Assembly (NCBI GenBank): GCA_017551925.1
Contig: JAFZKA010000063.1
Span: forward strand, 1-61,429
Reading direction: 5' to 3'
Origin: Bacteroidaceae bacterium
GTDB taxonomy: Bacteria; Bacteroidota; Bacteroidia; Bacteroidales; Bacteroidaceae
DNA: 61,429 nucleotides
The notes beneath the pieces are model-generated. The model made no database searches. It was not told the origin of the DNA and saw nothing but the letters and a program-made list of their open reading frames with translations. Below are positions 2,281-9,453 of the stretch, one piece after another; position 1 is the first letter of the stretch; every line of letters begins with the position of its first letter. Both the position numbers and the translations under genes were made by a program.

Positions 2281-2953
2281 GTCTGTTCTTTTTCAGTTCT
2301 GTGACGGTGAGAGTATCGCCTTGTACCTTAAATTTTACAGAACAGTTTTCAAAATCAAATCCATATTCGCGGTCGGGATCGTCATGAAAACGGGGCCGCG
2401 GATCTTCGGCAAGAATACCCTGGAGCGCAGTCAGCGTTCCGGGGTCTGTTTTTGATGTCAGTTCAGACGGAATGCTGACGTTAAGCCTGTGCATACCGAC
2501 TGTACCTGTAAAACCTTGTGTCGCACTGGGTTGACAGTCTGTGTATGGTATGTATGGCTTAATGTCGTAGATGGGCGTGCCGTCCATGAGGTCTGCGCCG
2601 CTGACGTGCAGGACCGGTCCTTGGGGTGTGCTCAATTCAATTGACTCCAATTTTACACATGACAGACCGATGGGGTTCGGACGAAATGGAGAACGGGTTG
2701 CAAAAACCCCCAGACGTGTATTGCCTCCGAGACGCGGCGGACGTACCGTAGGAGACCAATCCTCTCTTATGGCTTCAGAGAACTCCCATATAAGCCATAT
2801 ATGACTGAATCCTTCAAGACCTCTCAGAGCATCGGCATTACGGTACTCCGGGTTGAAAACAACAGTTCCTTTAAGTTCAGGTACCAGTCCGCTCTGTCTT
2901 GGAATTCCGAATTTACTGTGGAACCCTGTTCTGATCTTGGCAATCTCAATCAT
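2264..2953 (-). CDS. trmO: tRNA (N6-threonylcarbamoyladenosine(37)-N6)-methyltransferase TrmO
   Basis: A 229-residue protein of the TsaA/YaeB (TrmO) family, which uses S-adenosylmethionine to methylate t6A37 in threonine tRNAs. Recognisable family blocks are the N-terminal IAKIRTGFHSKFGIPRQSG, LEGFSHIWLIWEF around residue 45, and RPPRLGGNTRLGVFATRSPF followed by RPNPIGLS around residues 72-102, which form the cofactor site of the beta-barrel domain. The length fits the family. The first Met (2953) is consistent with the start MIEIAKI. It faces the DUF1573 gene tail to tail and is divergent from the secreted protein at 3011. Confidence 0.93.
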   Translation of the reverse strand: MIEIAKIRTGFHSKFGIPRQSGLVPELKGTVVFNPEYRNADALRGLEGFSHIWLIWEFSEAIREDWSPTVRPPRLGGNTRLGVFATRSPFRPNPIGLSCVKLESIELSTPQGPVLHVSGADLMDGTPIYDIKPYIPYTDCQPSATQGFTGTVGMHRLNVSIPSELTSKTDPGTLTALQGILAEDPRPRFHDDPDREYGFDFENCSVKFKVQGDTLTVTELKKNRLSSRS

Positions 2954-3010
2954 ATTGTTTTTTCAATTCGCTTAGACGAAGGTACGGAAAAAAAGAATAA
3001 TTTTGTATTT

Positions 3011-3811
3011 ATGGTAATAACAAAACTGTTATCAAGGTTGCGTGTGCTGCTTGCAGTATTTGTCTGCCTGACGGCAAACGGCATGTCTGCTCAGGTGTTG
3101 CCTGTTCTTAACAGTTTTACCGGGAGGACATTTGACGGAACTGTTGACGTGTCATGGCCTGTGGAGTTTGACGGTTGCACTTTTGTTACAGACAGCATTG
3201 TGTTACGCCATTCATACGGAGTGTTGTTCAGGAACTGTAATTTTGTGAGCAGAAGCGGTGTGTTGTATTTTGCTGAAAGCGGTGACGGAATGATTGTGGC
3301 GAATTGCTCAATAATCGGTTGTGATGAGCCGGAATTCAGCAGAAACAGGCTTTTGTCAGACAGGAATTATGTTACAGGATCATCTGTCAACGATGAAGAG
3401 TGGCTTGTATCTGATGAACAGGAACAGATAATTGATATTGACGGTCTTGCTCTTTCTGAAAGCATCAGAAGTAACAAAAAAGGACCGCTGATAATGGTAG
3501 TCAGTGCAGACCGTAAGGAGTTGGAAGGCGGTGAAACAGCCAGACTTATGGTGCGCGGACTGGAAAAGGATATGTTTGTAGGGTGGCAGTCATCGGATTC
3601 TATTGTGAAACTGAGTGTCGATGATGAGTCTGTCTGCACCGTATATGCCCCTCAAACAGTTGCAGACAGGATTAGAGTGGTGGTCGCGGCATATACGGAA
3701 TACGGACTTGAAGCGGCCTGTACATTGGCTCTTATGCCTGAGAAATCCGCTCAGAAGTCTGTCAAGGGGGATAAAAAGGTCAAAACATCACGCAAAAGAA
3801 AGAAAAAGTGA
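3011..3811 (+). CDS. secreted protein of unknown function, first gene of the kinase operon
   Basis: A 266-residue protein starting MVITKLLSRLRV. The ORF is open further upstream (to 2801), but that part is antisense to trmO, and the ATG at 3011 is directly followed by a convincing signal peptide ending GMSAQ, so 3011 is chosen. The region after the signal (residues 45-110) looks like a short beta-helix or right-handed repeat, with phrases such as VSWPVEFDGCTFV and FRNCNFVSRSGVLYF. The C-terminal third is charged and ends in a Lys/Arg tail. No family was recognised. Its stop overlaps the next gene's GTG start by four bases (GTGA), so translation is coupled to the kinase, and a role as a cell-surface partner of it is possible but unproven. 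Confidence 0.7.
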   Translation: MVITKLLSRLRVLLAVFVCLTANGMSAQVLPVLNSFTGRTFDGTVDVSWPVEFDGCTFVTDSIVLRHSYGVLFRNCNFVSRSGVLYFAESGDGMIVANCSIIGCDEPEFSRNRLLSDRNYVTGSSVNDEEWLVSDEQEQIIDIDGLALSESIRSNKKGPLIMVVSADRKELEGGETARLMVRGLEKDMFVGWQSSDSIVKLSVDDESVCTVYAPQTVADRIRVVVAAYTEYGLEAACTLALMPEKSAQKSVKGDKKVKTSRKRKKK

Positions 3812-6800
3812 AGTCTGGAGGTCTGAAATATTTTTTTGTATGTATCGTGATTTGTCTTGCGTCCTGCAGACAGAATCAGGTATATGATTCAGGACAAACA
3901 TCATTTGACCTGAACGAGAAAGCCATATCATACCTTTGGAATAATCTGGACTCTGCAGAACTTTATGCCCGATTCGCATTTGAGGCATCGGGCCATCATT
4001 CCGATGAACGCGCAAAAGCAGTTAACACTCTTGCCCGCATAGCGTTTCTTAAGATGGATTTTACGCAGGCATGGGAACTGTACAACTCTGTACCGTCCAT
4101 TACAGGCAATCTGCTTGAGGTGGTGGCATCGGAGATAGGGCTGATGCGTATCTGCCAACGGACATCGGATAATGTCTCATTCTATGAATACCGCAACAGC
4201 ATCCTGCTGCACTTGCGTTCCATTCATGAAGAGCAGGGAACTCTGAATGATGTCCAGACGGAGCGTTTGCTGTCACTTGAACGTTCGTTCAGAATGGAGT
4301 CTGCCAGATACTGGTTTGAGTTGGAACAGTTGGGACAGGCGGGACGGGAGATGTCATATGTCGTGCCTGACAACCTGTTGCGTGAGGATCATGACCGTTT
4401 CCTGACTTATACCTACATGCATGGATTGGGGATAGGCCTGGAAAACTATGGCTCTGAGGATATGATTTCACAGAGACTCCGCAGTCTGGATAATTGCCTG
4501 AGGAGTGCTGTGCGATATAATAATGTAAGGATGCAGGCGCTCAGTATAAGTGCCATCTGCTCATTGCTGCTGGAGTTCGGACCTGATAAGGTTCTGGCGG
4601 GTGTGAGTGATGATATGCTGTCCAGGCTTAATGCATCGGACGTACATCCGGAACTGTTACCTACCCAGTTGGCTCTCAAGGCATTGCAATTGTCGGCATC
4701 ATACGGAGGACAGTATGAGATAATAGAGAGTGAGAGACTGCTGGCATCATGCTATATCCAGCGCGGGCTGTATGATGAGGCTCTTGGAGTACTCAGAACT
4801 GCGCTTGATATGCTTAATGACAATTACCGTCTTAACAGCACCGGAACAGATGGATTTGAACCTCTTGAAATGTTCCGTCCCGACGGGGTCGTTGTTGAGG
4901 AACAATGGATGGCAAGATTGCCGCACGGCGTGGTTCCTGAGTGCATGTCTTCACTACGTGAGCAGATGAGCCTGGCATTTTCAGGATTGGACAATAAACT
5001 TGCATCAGATTACAACAGGACTGTTTATCTGGAATTGCAGAAGAATATACGTTTGGACCGCCGATATGAGGCTCGTACCATTTTGCTGGAGCGTTCCAAC
5101 CGTCGTCTGATGGGCATCCTATATGCCACTGCGGCGGCAATTGTCCTGTTGATGGTATTTATCTTACTGTTCCATAAGCGAATAAATGCAGCCAACCGCA
5201 AGTATGTTATATTGATGCAGAAGACTGTGCGATTGTGTGAGGACATTCTGAAACCGGTTCCTGTGGGCTCTGATTTGATAGAATGGCTAAACAGTACGGT
5301 GGCTCCCGGACTGATAGAACTGACAGGAGCGGAAAGTGTGGTTATTGATGAAAATGCTGAAATAATCGCTTCATGGGGCAATAAACGGGTCAGTCGTGAC
5401 AACCGGGCTGTGCTGAACACTGTTGCTCCATATCTTAAGGCAGCATTGAGAAATGCCGATGAACTGACAGGACAGGCCGATCGCCTTAAACAGGCTGAGA
5501 AACAGCATTACCTGTATCAGCTTCATGCAGAGAAAAACAAGCGTGAGAATCTGGCTCGCAAAACCTGTTGTCAGGTTGTGGCGGAGTGTCTGCCATACAT
5601 AGACCGCATGCGTTCAGAGATCAGACATCTGGCTGAGATGCCTGCAGACAGTTCTCAGTATGAACAGAGTCTTGAGTATGTCAGGGAACTTGCAGAGCGC
5701 ATAAATCAGTATAACGATCTGCTTTCACAGTGGATACGCATACGTCAGGGTGTTGTGACTCTGAATGTAGAGAGTTTTCCTGTACAAACGCTTTTTGATA
5801 TTGTAAGCCGCGGCAGCCGCAGTTTTTTGCAGAAGGGTGTTGAACTGAATGTGTGTGATACCGATGCTGTCGTACGCGCAGACAGGGTGCTTACATTGTT
5901 CATGATCAATACCTTGGCTGATAATGCACGCAAATTCACTCCGGCTGGAGGTAGGGTTACTGTAGAGGCTTTACAGGCAGATGAGTATGTGGAGATTTCA
6001 GTCTCTGACACCGGTGTGGGCTTGAGTGAGGATGATGTCCGCCAGATTTGCGAGTCAAAGGTGTTTGATCCGGACAGGATAGGACAGGGGCAGCACCAAG
6101 GTAAGGGAAGCGGGTTCGGTCTGATGAACTGCAAGGGTATTATTGAGAAATACCGTAAATCAGATGACCTGTTCCGCGTATGCAGTTTCAATGTGGAGAG
6201 TGTTCCGTGTAAGGGCAGCCGTTTCTCATTCCGTTTGCCTAAGGGAATCAGACGTGCCCTGACTGTATTGCTGATTCTTTTTGCGGGTGTCACCGCTCAG
6301 GCGCAGGATACCGATATGATTCAGGACAGTCTGTTGGTTAAGGCATACAACTACGCCAACCAGACTTATCTGTACAATACCGAAGGACATTTTGCCGATG
6401 CTATAATATATGCTGATTCGGCATTTGATGCTCTCAACAGGGATTATCTCTTGAACGGTGGGACACAGGATCTGCTCTTGTCGGTTTTTGACACGCTGGC
6501 ACCTGCCGAGACTTATTGGCTTGAAGACGGGTTCGCAACCGACTATGAGACCGTTTTGTGGCTTAGGAATGAGATTGCTGTATCGGCTCTCGCAATGCGT
6601 GACTGGGATGTGTACCGGTACAATGATGACGCATATCTTAAGTTGTTCAAATTGTACTATGGCGAATGGCAGATAGAGGAGGATTGCAGGGAACTTCAGC
6701 GCACCAACAGCAACCTGTCTATTGCGGTGATTATGTTTGCCTTGTTGTTCCTGACATTGCTGATAACCCGTTATATACTGCATTCACGTCATTGGTTGAG

Positions 6801-7992
6801 ATTCCGCAGTGATTTGCAGCAGGCTCAGAGGATTATCAACCGCATATCTGAAATAACTGCCGTGACAGACCTGGATCAGTTCAATGCGGAGAATGTGGTA
6901 CGCAACCTGACTGACGGACTGTTCAATGACCTGGATCATCTGATTGATATTCGTCAGTTGATTATTGCATTAAACAATGAGGGCAGGATCATATTCTCAA
7001 CTCATTCAGATTCTGATTCTGATGAATTGCTGACAGACAGGGTAAGAATGTGTATGGAGAGTTCATCGGAACTGATAACATCTGACGGACAGAGACGCGT
7101 TTTGCCGCTTTCTGTAACACTTGATGATGGCGAACATGCTGTCGGTGCAATAGGTTTTCAACTTGAGCATGAGCCTGATGAGTCATGGAATATTGTAAAA
7201 GGTATGGTTGTCAGTTATCTGGCGACAGCCCTATACAGTTGCGTGGTGAGGTTTGAGTCAGGTTTCCGTGATATTGAACAGATTGAGGAGGAGTCACAGA
7301 GAATACATTTTGAGGAGAACCGCCTGCACGTAAGCAATCTGATACTTGACAACTGCCTGTCCACTCTTAAGCATGAAACGGTGTGGTATCCCAACAGGAT
7401 TGTACAGATGGTTGAAGGCATAGAATCCACACCTGTAACAAAACGTACTGCAATTCAGGTGTCGGATATGGAAGAACTGGTCGATTATTATCGTGAAATA
7501 TTCGGCATTCTGAGTCAGTATGCCTTGTCACAGACTACAAGCCAGTTGGTTCACAGAGACGTTTTTGCGGTCAGAGATATTATGGACAAGGTTCGTACAT
7601 ATATCAATAAGGCACAATCCCGTAATGGCTATAGCGGTCAGATAAGCATAGAGGCTGGTGATGAAAAAGTTGTGGCTGACAGCGTTTTGATAGAGTACCT
7701 TGTTGAGAATCTGGTTGACATTGGTATGGCCGATGGAGGTGATATGCTGATCAGGAGTGTTTGTGACGGAAAGTTTGTAAGATTGGAACTTCACCGCAAA
7801 TGCACGGTACCTGATCCGGAGGTGTTGGACGGATTGTTCACTCCGCTGATGAATAAGGAGAATATGGCATATGTATTATGCCGTCAGATAATACGTGAGC
7901 ATGATGAAGCATTTGGGCATCCCGGATGCCGTATCAATGCAGAGAGTGAAACAGATGGTATATCAATATGGTTCACCATTCCTAAAGGATAA
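3808..7992 (+). CDS. double-module histidine-kinase-like lipoprotein (DUF5112/DUF5113 type)
   Basis: A 1394-residue protein with a GTG start overlapping the previous stop. Order: lipoprotein signal with lipobox LASC (about 1-20); helical TPR-like sensor region to about 430; membrane helix 434-458; helical linker; an ATPase domain with N-box (NTLADNARKFTP, D705), G1 box DTGVGL (D734) and G2 box GKGSGFGL (765). A second signal-peptide-like segment at 813-833 ends AQAQD, then comes another helical sensor part, a membrane helix at 971-991 and a second DHp-like region with LKHET (H1189). The second ATPase region lacks the G1 and G2 boxes. In the first module the position matching H1189 is A592 (VVAEC versus LKHET). 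The layout recalls Bacteroidetes proteins annotated DUF5112/DUF5113, from memory. It is followed by its response regulator after 17 bases. An intramolecular or heteromeric phosphotransfer is inferred. Confidence 0.8.
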   Translation: MKSGGLKYFFVCIVICLASCRQNQVYDSGQTSFDLNEKAISYLWNNLDSAELYARFAFEASGHHSDERAKAVNTLARIAFLKMDFTQAWELYNSVPSITGNLLEVVASEIGLMRICQRTSDNVSFYEYRNSILLHLRSIHEEQGTLNDVQTERLLSLERSFRMESARYWFELEQLGQAGREMSYVVPDNLLREDHDRFLTYTYMHGLGIGLENYGSEDMISQRLRSLDNCLRSAVRYNNVRMQALSISAICSLLLEFGPDKVLAGVSDDMLSRLNASDVHPELLPTQLALKALQLSASYGGQYEIIESERLLASCYIQRGLYDEALGVLRTALDMLNDNYRLNSTGTDGFEPLEMFRPDGVVVEEQWMARLPHGVVPECMSSLREQMSLAFSGLDNKLASDYNRTVYLELQKNIRLDRRYEARTILLERSNRRLMGILYATAAAIVLLMVFILLFHKRINAANRKYVILMQKTVRLCEDILKPVPVGSDLIEWLNSTVAPGLIELTGAESVVIDENAEIIASWGNKRVSRDNRAVLNTVAPYLKAALRNADELTGQADRLKQAEKQHYLYQLHAEKNKRENLARKTCCQVVAECLPYIDRMRSEIRHLAEMPADSSQYEQSLEYVRELAERINQYNDLLSQWIRIRQGVVTLNVESFPVQTLFDIVSRGSRSFLQKGVELNVCDTDAVVRADRVLTLFMINTLADNARKFTPAGGRVTVEALQADEYVEISVSDTGVGLSEDDVRQICESKVFDPDRIGQGQHQGKGSGFGLMNCKGIIEKYRKSDDLFRVCSFNVESVPCKGSRFSFRLPKGIRRALTVLLILFAGVTAQAQDTDMIQDSLLVKAYNYANQTYLYNTEGHFADAIIYADSAFDALNRDYLLNGGTQDLLLSVFDTLAPAETYWLEDGFATDYETVLWLRNEIAVSALAMRDWDVYRYNDDAYLKLFKLYYGEWQIEEDCRELQRTNSNLSIAVIMFALLFLTLLITRYILHSRHWLRFRSDLQQAQRIINRISEITAVTDLDQFNAENVVRNLTDGLFNDLDHLIDIRQLIIALNNEGRIIFSTHSDSDSDELLTDRVRMCMESSSELITSDGQRRVLPLSVTLDDGEHAVGAIGFQLEHEPDESWNIVKGMVVSYLATALYSCVVRFESGFRDIEQIEEESQRIHFEENRLHVSNLILDNCLSTLKHETVWYPNRIVQMVEGIESTPVTKRTAIQVSDMEELVDYYREIFGILSQYALSQTTSQLVHRDVFAVRDIMDKVRTYINKAQSRNGYSGQISIEAGDEKVVADSVLIEYLVENLVDIGMADGGDMLIRSVCDGKFVRLELHRKCTVPDPEVLDGLFTPLMNKENMAYVLCRQIIREHDEAFGHPGCRINAESETDGISIWFTIPKG

Positions 7993-8009: not shown

Positions 8010-8735
8010 ATGGAGAAATTCAAGACAATTGTGGTTGAGGACGTGTCATTGGAGTTAAAGGGGACACTGTCAATTATCAGGAATGATATTCCTGAAATAG
8101 AGGTTATAGGTACTGCACAGACAGAACGTGAGTTCTGGGCCCTGATAGACGGCGGCGCCTGTCCTGATCTTGTATTACTTGATCTGGGTTTGGGCGGTTC
8201 CACTACGGTGGGAGTGGATATCTGCCGGAAACTGACACAAAAGGAGAACTCCGGTGTCAAGGTGCTGGTATTTACAGGTGAGTTGCTCAATGAAAAACTG
8301 TGGGCCGATGTCCTGGATGCCGGTGCTCATGGAATAGTACTCAAAACAGGTGAACTCCTGACCCGCAGTGAGGTGATGGATGTGATGTCAGGCAAGCATT
8401 ACGTTTTCAATGAACCGGTATTGGAGAAACTTGTCGAGCGTTTCCGCAAGGCTGTGACTGATGAGAAACTTCAGCGTAGTGCAAGTATAGAATATGAGAT
8501 AGATGAATATGACGAGCGCTTTCTGCGTCATCTGGCATTAGGATATACCAAGGATATGATAAGTGAGTTGCGCACCATGCCTTTCAGCAGTAAGTCACTG
8601 GAAAAACGCCAGGCCGATCTGGTATCACGTCTGTTTCCTGAGGGGGAGCAGCGTGGCGTTAACGTTACGCGTCTTGTAGTCAGAGCCATTGAGTTGCATA
8701 TTATAGATCCTTCAAATCTCATTGCTGATGAATAG
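8010..8735 (+). CDS. response regulator with receiver and LuxR-like C-terminal region
   Basis: A 241-residue protein. The receiver domain spans residues 1-125 and carries the acidic pair E10/D11, the probable phospho-acceptor D58 (LVLLDLG), T89 (VFTG) and the conserved lysine K112 (GIVLKTG), so it looks phosphorylatable. The C-terminal 80 residues contain DERFLRHLALGYTKDMISE and SSKSLEKRQADLVSRLF, resembling a diverged LuxR-type helix-turn-helix. It lies 17 bases after the double kinase and overlaps the membrane-protein start by 8 bases, so the three are one operon and it is the likely output of that kinase. Its targets are unknown. Confidence 0.88.
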   Translation: MEKFKTIVVEDVSLELKGTLSIIRNDIPEIEVIGTAQTEREFWALIDGGACPDLVLLDLGLGGSTTVGVDICRKLTQKENSGVKVLVFTGELLNEKLWADVLDAGAHGIVLKTGELLTRSEVMDVMSGKHYVFNEPVLEKLVERFRKAVTDEKLQRSASIEYEIDEYDERFLRHLALGYTKDMISELRTMPFSSKSLEKRQADLVSRLFPEGEQRGVNVTRLVVRAIELHIIDPSNLIADE

Positions 8736-9453
8736 ACGTTCAAGGTGGCTGTTGCATCCGGCTGTCATATATCTGATACTGCTTATCCTGATCATTCTTA
8801 TCTCATGGATAGGCAGTGTGATAGAGATAAAACACTCCAGCGGTAATACTGATCTTGCTATCAGAAGTGCATTGGGCGCATCGGGTGTAAGATGGGCCGT
8901 AAGGAGTGCGGCAGATTGCCTGCGGAATGCTCCAATAGGAAATGCCATTATGCTGTTTCTGACAATAGGAGTGTTTAAGGGGTGCGGGGCGCAGCGGGCT
9001 CTGCTTAATTATAAGAGCCTTTCGCCAAAGGAACGTACGTCATTGCATTTGGGGCTTATAGTCCTGATTGTTTGCATTGTAGTTGTTATACTGGGTCTGT
9101 TTGCCGGAAGCCGTTTGCTTTTGAGCGTGACCGGCAGATTGCATGGCAGTCCGCTGTTTGACGGTTTTATCTTTCTTCTGTTGCTTACAGTTGCTGTTCC
9201 GTCATTGGTTTACGGTTTTTCATCAGACAATATACGCAACCTGAATGATTGCATGAATGCTTTTGCTTCAATGGCAGTTCAAATGACTCATTTTATTATT
9301 ACGCTGCTTTTGGCTGCCCAACTGATTCAGGTAATAGAATATACCAATTTATATCAGTTTGTGGGTCTGAGTGCAAATGCGTTCAGATATATCGCATTTA
9401 TCGTATATTGGCTGCCGTTGCCGGTAATTATGTATATGTACAGAGGTCTGTGA
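8728..9453 (+). CDS. half-length AbgT-like integral membrane protein
   Basis: A 241-residue, very hydrophobic protein with about six predicted membrane segments. The N-terminus (HPAVIYL, LISWIGSV, GVRWAVRSAADCL, NAPIGNAIM) resembles the start of AbgT-family p-aminobenzoyl-glutamate or drug transporters, which are about 500 residues, so this is at most half a transporter. ATG 8728 is chosen over the in-frame TTG at 8722. It overlaps the regulator gene by 8 bases. Its constant position behind the kinase and regulator suggests a membrane sensor, accessory or effector of that pathway. The AbgT resemblance is weak and by eye only; a family unique to Bacteroidetes is equally possible. Confidence 0.6.
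   Translation: MNRRSRWLLHPAVIYLILLILIILISWIGSVIEIKHSSGNTDLAIRSALGASGVRWAVRSAADCLRNAPIGNAIMLFLTIGVFKGCGAQRALLNYKSLSPKERTSLHLGLIVLIVCIVVVILGLFAGSRLLLSVTGRLHGSPLFDGFIFLLLLTVAVPSLVYGFSSDNIRNLNDCMNAFASMAVQMTHFIITLLLAAQLIQVIEYTNLYQFVGLSANAFRYIAFIVYWLPLPVIMYMYRGL

Follow-up and report, generated by a model that had tools for sequence, protein, structure and literature searches.

A two-module sensor kinase of Bacteroidaceae with its ATP site in one module and its predicted acceptor histidine in the other

The window analyzed here is a stretch of 61,429 nucleotides from a Bacteroidaceae bacterium (contig JAFZKA010000063.1 of assembly GCA_017551925.1), and the subject of this study is a double sensor kinase encoded within it. 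An open reading frame (ORF) of 1394 amino acids was found at positions 3808..7992 of the forward strand, whose GTG start overlaps the stop codon of the upstream gene and which is followed by the gene of a partner response regulator (Table 1). A Pfam scan of this ORF names three families (DUF5112, HATPase_c, and DUF5113) and gives no Response_reg match inside it, and a second DUF5113 match, in the first half, was obtained by a whole-genome profile search. The two halves, hereafter copy 1 and copy 2, each carry a helical DHp domain and a CA domain (DHp1 and CA1, DHp2 and CA2). Reciprocal losses in these domains are fixed throughout the family of relatives, and one trait of a split kinase, the placement of ATP site and acceptor His on different modules, is present.

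The internal repeat covers most of the chain. Residues 299-813 align with residues 839-1394 over 494 columns (hhalign, E=1.5e-33), with A592 of copy 1 opposite H1189 of copy 2, and the two CA domains also match each other when compared alone (E=1.9e-18). The same order of elements was observed in both halves, namely DUF5113, a membrane helix, a variable domain, DHp, and CA.

The comparative analysis was based on the best frame per locus from 215 loci, keeping frames that were uncut, at least 950 amino acids long, and scored at least 250 summed BLAST bits against the window protein. After removal of exact duplicates, 123 distinct full-length members remained (the window included, near copies still present), which span 24 genera by a tally of locus labels and have an effective number of 82 at 75% identity; counts given below refer to these 123 members unless another number is stated. 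Because a single uncut frame was the condition of entry, the one-frame state of the members is not an independent finding. In copy 1, the six ATP-site residues (N706, D734, G736, G738, G769, and G771) are present in every member. In copy 2, 0, 1, 2, and 3 of the six equivalents are found in 24, 24, 71, and 4 members, respectively: most members carry E, A, R, or L at the position of the N-box Asn, the glycines of G1 and the second one of G2 are missing from most, and the first G2 Gly and the G1 Asp are kept in 74 and 85 members. The string D.G.G could be detected in 2 of the copy-2 CA domains versus all 123 of those in copy 1. The acceptor pair H1189-E1190 is invariant at both positions (123/123 each), and its counterpart in copy 1 is highly variable, with column 592 occupied by N (34), A (28), T (28), Y (8), H (7), M (5), S (4), G (3), L (3), and 3 other residues, and with the following acidic residue mostly lost (G 79, E 22, D 5). 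The copy-2 part of the members reaches down to 26% identity with the window (75 rows). The first-pass annotation of this DNA had proposed exactly such complementary defects from a single sequence, and the proposal holds across the family. The two sequence patterns that would speak against it, a conserved acceptor His in copy 1 and clear ATP-binding boxes in copy 2, were both looked for and not found: His stands at the copy-1 acceptor position in 7 members, and copy 2 keeps 0-3 of the six ATP-site residues. Since members were selected by length and BLAST score, not by these sites, the occurrence of the complementary pattern in 123/123 is not due to chance.

Conservation in the two copies is arranged in mirror image. 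The mean pairwise identity is 0.62 in CA1 versus 0.37 in CA2, and 0.46 versus 0.65 in the first DHp helix of copy 1 and copy 2; the second DHp helix shows the reverse (0.54 for copy 1 versus 0.45 for copy 2), and the two DUF5113 repeats, which serve as an internal control, are equal (0.42 and 0.43). CA1 is also the domain with the most near-invariant columns (48 of 138 at ≥95%). Such a pattern is predicted by a division of labor between the copies and not by simple decay of one of them. It also bears on a different explanation, in which a different, complete histidine kinase supplies phosphate to copy 2 as a phosphotransfer module, and copy 1 serves as a subunit for ATP sensing or as a phosphatase subunit. 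Copy 2 indeed retains the acceptor chemistry alone, and there is precedent for incomplete kinases acting on other partners (DivL, for example), but a separate donor does not explain the near-invariance of CA1, all six ATP-site residues included, and this arrangement is considered improbable.

Two further alternatives concern the individual sites. Copy 1 might autophosphorylate elsewhere, for example at H573, and then relay the phosphate; this position is His in 94 members, but R, Q, N, Y, K, D, or S replace it in the other 29, which implies that H573 is not essential, and the site that aligns with the acceptor is 592, making this route very unlikely. On the other hand, CA2 might bind nucleotide in an unconventional way and copy 2 might be an active kinase, as its fold is well predicted and HATPase_c is matched at E≤0.01 by 56 of 75 copy-2 segments scanned (the window's own copy 2 is not among them). 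The losses at the N-box Asn and the G1 and second G2 glycines, together with the near absence of the D.G.G string from copy 2, stand against this, and it appears the least likely of the explanations weighed here.

Residues of the HE motif and of the N, G1, and G2 boxes are named here as is usual for histidine kinases. All five residues named in the first-pass annotation (A592, D705, D734, G765, and H1189) agree with the translation, and its placement of D734 in the G1 box was right; the catalytic N-box Asn is N706, beside D705, and it is G769 and G771 that form the G2 glycines, not G765, which is not conserved (18 of 62 Gly). The members with His at column 592 comprise all five fetched members of one genus (L110, L124, L172, L175, and L177) as well as L129 and L174, and the residue that follows this His is S, A, D, G, or N. 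These seven may have regained or retained a second site.

Structure prediction with AlphaFold2 (AF2) was carried out for residues 1000-1394 using 75 rows from the 123 members, which gave a mean predicted local distance difference test (pLDDT) of 87.5 and a predicted template modeling score (pTM) of 0.53. The model of copy 2 contains a GAF-like domain followed by DHp helices and by an alpha/beta CA fold, and Foldseek matched it to HK853-type histidine-kinase cores (E ~1e-10; TM-score ~0.3 by query and ~0.5 by target). Thus, as modeled, copy 2 has a CA fold without the ATP-site residues. The two-module chain (residues 425-1394, 70 rows) was predicted with a pLDDT of 84.8 and a pTM of 0.60; in this model, the first helices of both DHp domains are broken just past the acceptor position. 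The best Foldseek match of the two-module chain is the kinase-like core of DivL, which is termed a pseudo-histidine kinase in the abstract of PMC9430884.

The partner regulator is a conserved feature of these loci. By BLAST to the window's regulator, it was found directly downstream on the same strand in all 62 loci that leave space for it (≥900 bases), at a distance of at most 250 nucleotides in 60 of them and of 321 and 364 nucleotides in the other two; under a stricter adjacency rule, it was missed in 5 of 115 loci. The receiver residues E10, D11, D58, T89, and K112 are all present in the 67 regulators aligned.

A probable mechanism can be proposed on the basis of these patterns. A TPR-sensor histidine kinase module would have been duplicated in tandem within one reading frame, after which copy 1 would have kept its ATP-binding CA domain and lost the acceptor His, and copy 2 would have kept H1189 with a CA fold devoid of an ATP site. 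The two DHp helix pairs would form a hetero four-helix bundle, either inside a single chain or, if the chain is cut, between its two products. CA1 would bind ATP and phosphorylate H1189 of DHp2, and D58 of the neighboring DUF5932 regulator would then receive the phosphate from H1189. Both periplasmic DUF5113 sensors would jointly gate this one kinase in response to a putative signal. If such a hetero bundle forms, the transfer would have the geometry of trans-autophosphorylation in ordinary dimers, and a cis-type loop handedness would not permit it. As a whole, we regard this scheme, from opposite losses to joint gating, as having a good chance of being correct.

Several observations weigh against this scheme. 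Seven of the members carry a His at column 592 while keeping H1189. The DHp motif is atypical, as HisKA (PF00512) gives no Pfam match in the ORF at E≤1 and none is listed for the 75 copy-2 segments at E≤0.01, and the fourth residue after the acceptor His (residue 1193) is Y in 96, W in 24, S in 2, and F in 1 of the members, mostly Y or W and not T or N, which departs from the phosphatase motif of HisKA kinases printed as HE/DxxN/T in the excerpt of PMC3591291. Both AF2 models have low pTM values, 0.53 (copy 2) and 0.60 (two-module chain). Direct-coupling analysis of the two DHp-CA parts (123 rows, effective 82) gave no usable signal: among the top 200 coupled pairs, 18 link DHp1 with DHp2 versus 16 expected, and 26 link CA1 with DHp2 versus 23.5 expected. 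Moreover, the nearest one-module kinase found, described below, is not decisive for the ancestry, as a control TPR kinase (L227) matches copy 1 with E=2.6e-33 and the control L230 matches copy 2 with E=3.1e-17. The null co-evolution result and the copy-1 His in 7/123 favor no other model.

The joint between the two copies, residues 813-833 (GIRRALTVLLILFAGVTAQAQ), lies below the hydropathy cut-off that both membrane helices pass. The first-pass annotation had described it as an internal signal-peptide-like segment, and family-wide statistics of uncharged runs and lipoboxes do place it nearer to signal peptides than to membrane helices. The uncharged run at the junction has a median of 16 residues (n=121, two being too short to score), compared with 17 in N-terminal signal peptides (n=121) and 20 and 22 in the two membrane helices (123 each), and in 113 members the FRLP-like end of CA1 is followed within five residues by 2-3 Lys/Arg. 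A permissive lipobox occurs at 53 of the 123 junctions versus a shuffled mean of 19.1 (max 28) and 3 and 5 in the membrane-helix controls, and a strict lipobox at 13 versus a shuffled mean of 3.5 (max 9); other junctions, including that of the window (AQA/Q), end in AxA-like sites. Two results count against reading the junction as a signal peptide: the signal peptidase I-type motif is found at 79 of 123 junctions versus a shuffled mean of 67.3 (max 77), which is weak alone, and a 19-residue hydropathy of 1.6 is reached by 58% of junctions, as compared with 64% of N-terminal signal peptides and all membrane helices. With a tighter motif window, neither motif is present in 68 of 121 junctions, the same as in 68 of 121 true N-termini.

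These statistics suggest a signal-peptide-like junction whose site type switches between relatives and at which the chain may be cut. Since the junction resembles a signal peptide more than a helix, cleavage might yield two split-kinase subunits made 1:1, and the persistence of its features across the family implies that it may be more than a relic. In such a polyprotein, signal peptidase I or II would cut at about residue 832 to release an ATP-binding subunit and a phospho-acceptor subunit from one frame; this is put forward tentatively, at somewhat less than an even chance. An internal translation start for copy 2 would be an alternative to cleavage. In-frame start codons are present at residues 806-822 in 108 of 123 members (ATG in 55, otherwise GTG in 28, otherwise TTG in 25, and none in 15), but ATG positions scatter over many offsets and a conserved start was not seen in the 123 members. 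The precursor of cytochrome FbcH in Bradyrhizobium is a precedent for an internal signal peptide in bacteria; a search of the open-licence literature for bacterial internal signal peptides returned mostly viral or unrelated work.

With regard to origin, the first-pass annotation had seen in the joint a fusion of two once-separate membrane proteins. This view needs refinement, as the halves are homologous throughout. Copy 2 compared with 15 other kinases gave E-values from 3.8e-18 to 2.6e-11 over shorter spans, comparisons that are less sensitive in having 1-2 sequences each. Because both halves contain DUF5113 and copy 2 is nearest to copy 1, tandem duplication with reciprocal loss fits better than a fusion of unrelated proteins, and we infer that the double kinase arose by in-frame tandem duplication followed by reciprocal loss. 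In a tree of CA domains, copy 1 and copy 2 each form one group, and a single-module candidate lies on the side of copy 2 (97/81). Of 34 loci tried as controls representing other kinases, 30 passed the motif filter. The tree has few columns and long copy-2 branches, and the order of events is therefore not based on it.

This single-module candidate is a 710-amino-acid TPR kinase (L236 1257-3386 and L237 3233-5362) whose acceptor motif is RHD and whose N, G1, and G2 boxes are intact. Three genomes of one genus, from a different family of the same order, were sampled, and two of them have this kinase (strong in G286 and G101, not in G201). Its two representatives are the best matches to the copy-2 profile outside Bacteroidaceae among 295 genomes (74.3 and 68.2 bits, the next being 63.5). 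It aligns with copy 1 over 631 columns (E=2.9e-34) with its His opposite A592, and its CA domain matches copy 2 (E=3.8e-18). The adjoining regulator reaches 25.7 and 26.2 bits for DUF5932 against a cut-off of 23.7 and matches the window's regulator family with E=4.5e-13, versus 1.4e-10 to 4.1e-5 for 13 control regulators, which makes it the best of the 14 compared by a margin that is not wide. The kinase and its weak DUF5932 regulator together span 1257-4222 in L236 and 2397-5362 in L237. As proof of ancestry, this kinase was rejected: 14 control kinases score nearly as well, which reduces it to a candidate relative, and weak over-cut-off DUF5932 matches occur in 7 other-family genomes. It may be regarded as the closest complete kinase system with one module that was found, but not as a proven ancestor. 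It aligns to both copies and, like the double kinase, adjoins a DUF5932-matching regulator; unlike the double kinase, it holds His and ATP site together in one module.

The distribution of the family was examined in several genome samples. The chain is matched at E≤0.001 in 378 of 399 Bacteroidaceae genomes, some of these matches covering the ATPase domain alone; in the window's own genome, the two other matches are both confined to the ATPase-domain region. In an order-wide sample of 295 genomes, among the matches to the copy-2 profile listed in order of E-value, the only ones over its full length come from the 4 Bacteroidaceae genomes. DUF5113 was found at E≤0.001 in 10 of the 295, and 5 of these matches exceed the cut-off. 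A single over-cut-off DUF5113 match lies outside Bacteroidaceae, in a TPR-repeat protein, and was taken as chance. DUF5932 was detected in 18 of 395 genomes of the phylum, including 5 strong matches, all in Bacteroidaceae, and 13 weak ones, of which 7 are over the cut-off. Shorter chains occur in some genera (L126, 997; L128, 1124; L127, 1177; and L125, 1183 amino acids); in these, the variable domains that lie from the membrane helix to DHp are apparently incomplete, and both kinase halves are kept. In L067 (G693:C21), the chain lies in two frames (residues 72-506 and 535-1394) with the break within copy 1, possibly an assembly frameshift and not a split between modules.

The features of the locus are collected in Table 1. 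The gene upstream of the kinase (2801-3811) shares 4 bases with the kinase start, and its beta-helix match is weak (E=0.0044) and below the cut-off; related genes were found in three loci of the same genus for which upstream sequence was listed (L018, L133, and L135). In relatives, the AbgT-like gene at the same place mostly encodes about 210-270 amino acids, judged by open-frame lengths, and full forms of 486-506 amino acids are present in 8 loci (L098, L100, L104, L107, L112, L113, L122, and L131). This transporter looks as if it were undergoing reduction within the gene array.

Table 1. Positions of the double kinase, its parts, and neighboring genes in the window.
Feature	Position	Strand	Evidence
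Double sensor kinase ORF, 1394 amino acids, GTG start	3808..7992	+	ORF; 123 full-length members, chosen as uncut single frames
N-terminal signal peptide, lipobox-like LASC, residues 1-25	3808..3882	+	Sequence; lipobox-like motif in 51/121 N-termini scored
DUF5112, residues 35-295, putatively periplasmic	3910..4692	+	Pfam E=9.4e-52; location inferred from topology
DUF5113 copy 1 (TPR-like sensor and beginning of transmembrane helix)	4702..5178	+	Pfam PF17140, 90.6 bits
Copy-1 transmembrane helix, residues 432-462	5101..5193	+	Hydropathy up to 2.82
DHp1 helices, residues ~570-648, without acceptor His	5515..5751	+	AF2 helices; hhalign to DHp2
A592, place of missing acceptor His	5581..5583	+	Pairs with H1189 and with His of candidate single-module relative
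CA1, intact ATP-binding domain, residues 676-813	5833..6246	+	Pfam HATPase_c E=2.5e-18 (699-812); 6/6 ATP-site residues in 123/123
N706, N-box Asn	5923..5925	+	123/123
G1 box D734-x-G736-x-G738	6007..6021	+	Each of three residues 123/123
G2 box G769-F-G771	6112..6120	+	123/123
Junction, internal signal-peptide-like segment, residues 813-833, ends AQA/Q	6244..6306	+	Uncharged-run length; permissive lipobox
DUF5113 copy 2, residues 840-994	6325..6789	+	Pfam E=2.4e-55 (whole protein); 108.7 bits (stretch alone)
Copy-2 transmembrane helix, residues 966-993	6703..6786	+	Hydropathy up to 2.42
GAF-like cytoplasmic domain, residues 1000-1120	6805..7167	+	AF2 alpha/beta fold, pLDDT mostly >90; GAF_3 match in 7/75 segments
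DHp2 helices, residues 1126-1242	7183..7533	+	AF2; Foldseek to histidine-kinase cores
H1189, predicted phospho-acceptor, then E1190	7372..7374	+	H 123/123, E 123/123
CA2, degenerate GHKL domain, residues 1251-1394	7558..7989	+	AF2 pLDDT ~90 in most blocks; 0-3/6 ATP-site residues
Partner response regulator, receiver and DUF5932	8010..8735	+	Pfam, DUF5932 E=2.1e-50
AbgT-like membrane protein, half-size, 243 amino acids, after regulator	8722..9453	+	Pfam E=3.4e-19; beside regulator in many relatives

Several known systems resemble the double kinase in part. According to the excerpt of PMC3591291, split histidine kinases are described as rare and have been biochemically characterized in Rhodobacter, and it is proposed that they produce bistable, switch-like responses. 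In CheA3/CheA4 of Rhodobacter sphaeroides, described there, ATP site and acceptor are likewise apart and complement each other in a complex that phosphorylates one regulator, but these are two genes of the CheA type, whereas the double kinase is one frame that encodes two homologous sensor modules in the membrane, with an acceptor of the DHp type. The same excerpt reports that 1556 of 42417 HisKA proteins have no HATPase domain, 711 of which are possible split bifunctional kinases; the double kinase has no HisKA match. Hik36-Hik43/Rre6 of Synechocystis is also divided into an acceptor part and a catalytic part, but as a split cheA homologue in separate genes (excerpt of PMC7656254). TodS of Pseudomonas putida has two DHp-CA transmitter modules per chain, but with a receiver between them, a His-Asp-His-Asp relay, and no transmembrane regions in the description excerpted from PMC4321377, whereas the double kinase has no receiver and each of its modules is half defective. 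The Pfam architecture of DUF5112, HATPase_c, and DUF5113 with DUF5932 regulators is matched by the double kinase and its regulator; Pfam gives no function, and DHp2 and the degenerate CA2 are not named in the scan of the protein. No paper on DUF5112, DUF5113, DUF5932, or DUF6377 was found in the open-licence PMC literature, nor was a one-frame, reciprocally divided double kinase found in the open-licence literature searched, and the excerpt of a review of sensor kinases (PMC8534201) makes no mention of "split", "heterodimer", or "two histidine kinase". A point added here is that the joint at 813-833 resembles signal peptides more than membrane helices, so that the chain may be cut there into split-kinase subunits in a 1:1 ratio.

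These findings describe a split-kinase division of labor in one reading frame, spread over at least 24 genera of one bacterial family. They raise the testable questions of whether a duplicated kinase is fixed as an obligate pseudo-heterodimer by reciprocal loss, whether autophosphorylation occurs across the bundle, and whether an internal signal peptide is a route to equal kinase subunits. Moreover, they give DUF5112, DUF5113, and DUF5932 a function to test. If the chain is indeed cut at the junction, many genera of this family of gut bacteria would possess an obligate heterodimeric split kinase of fixed 1:1 stoichiometry, in which two different periplasmic sensors must agree.

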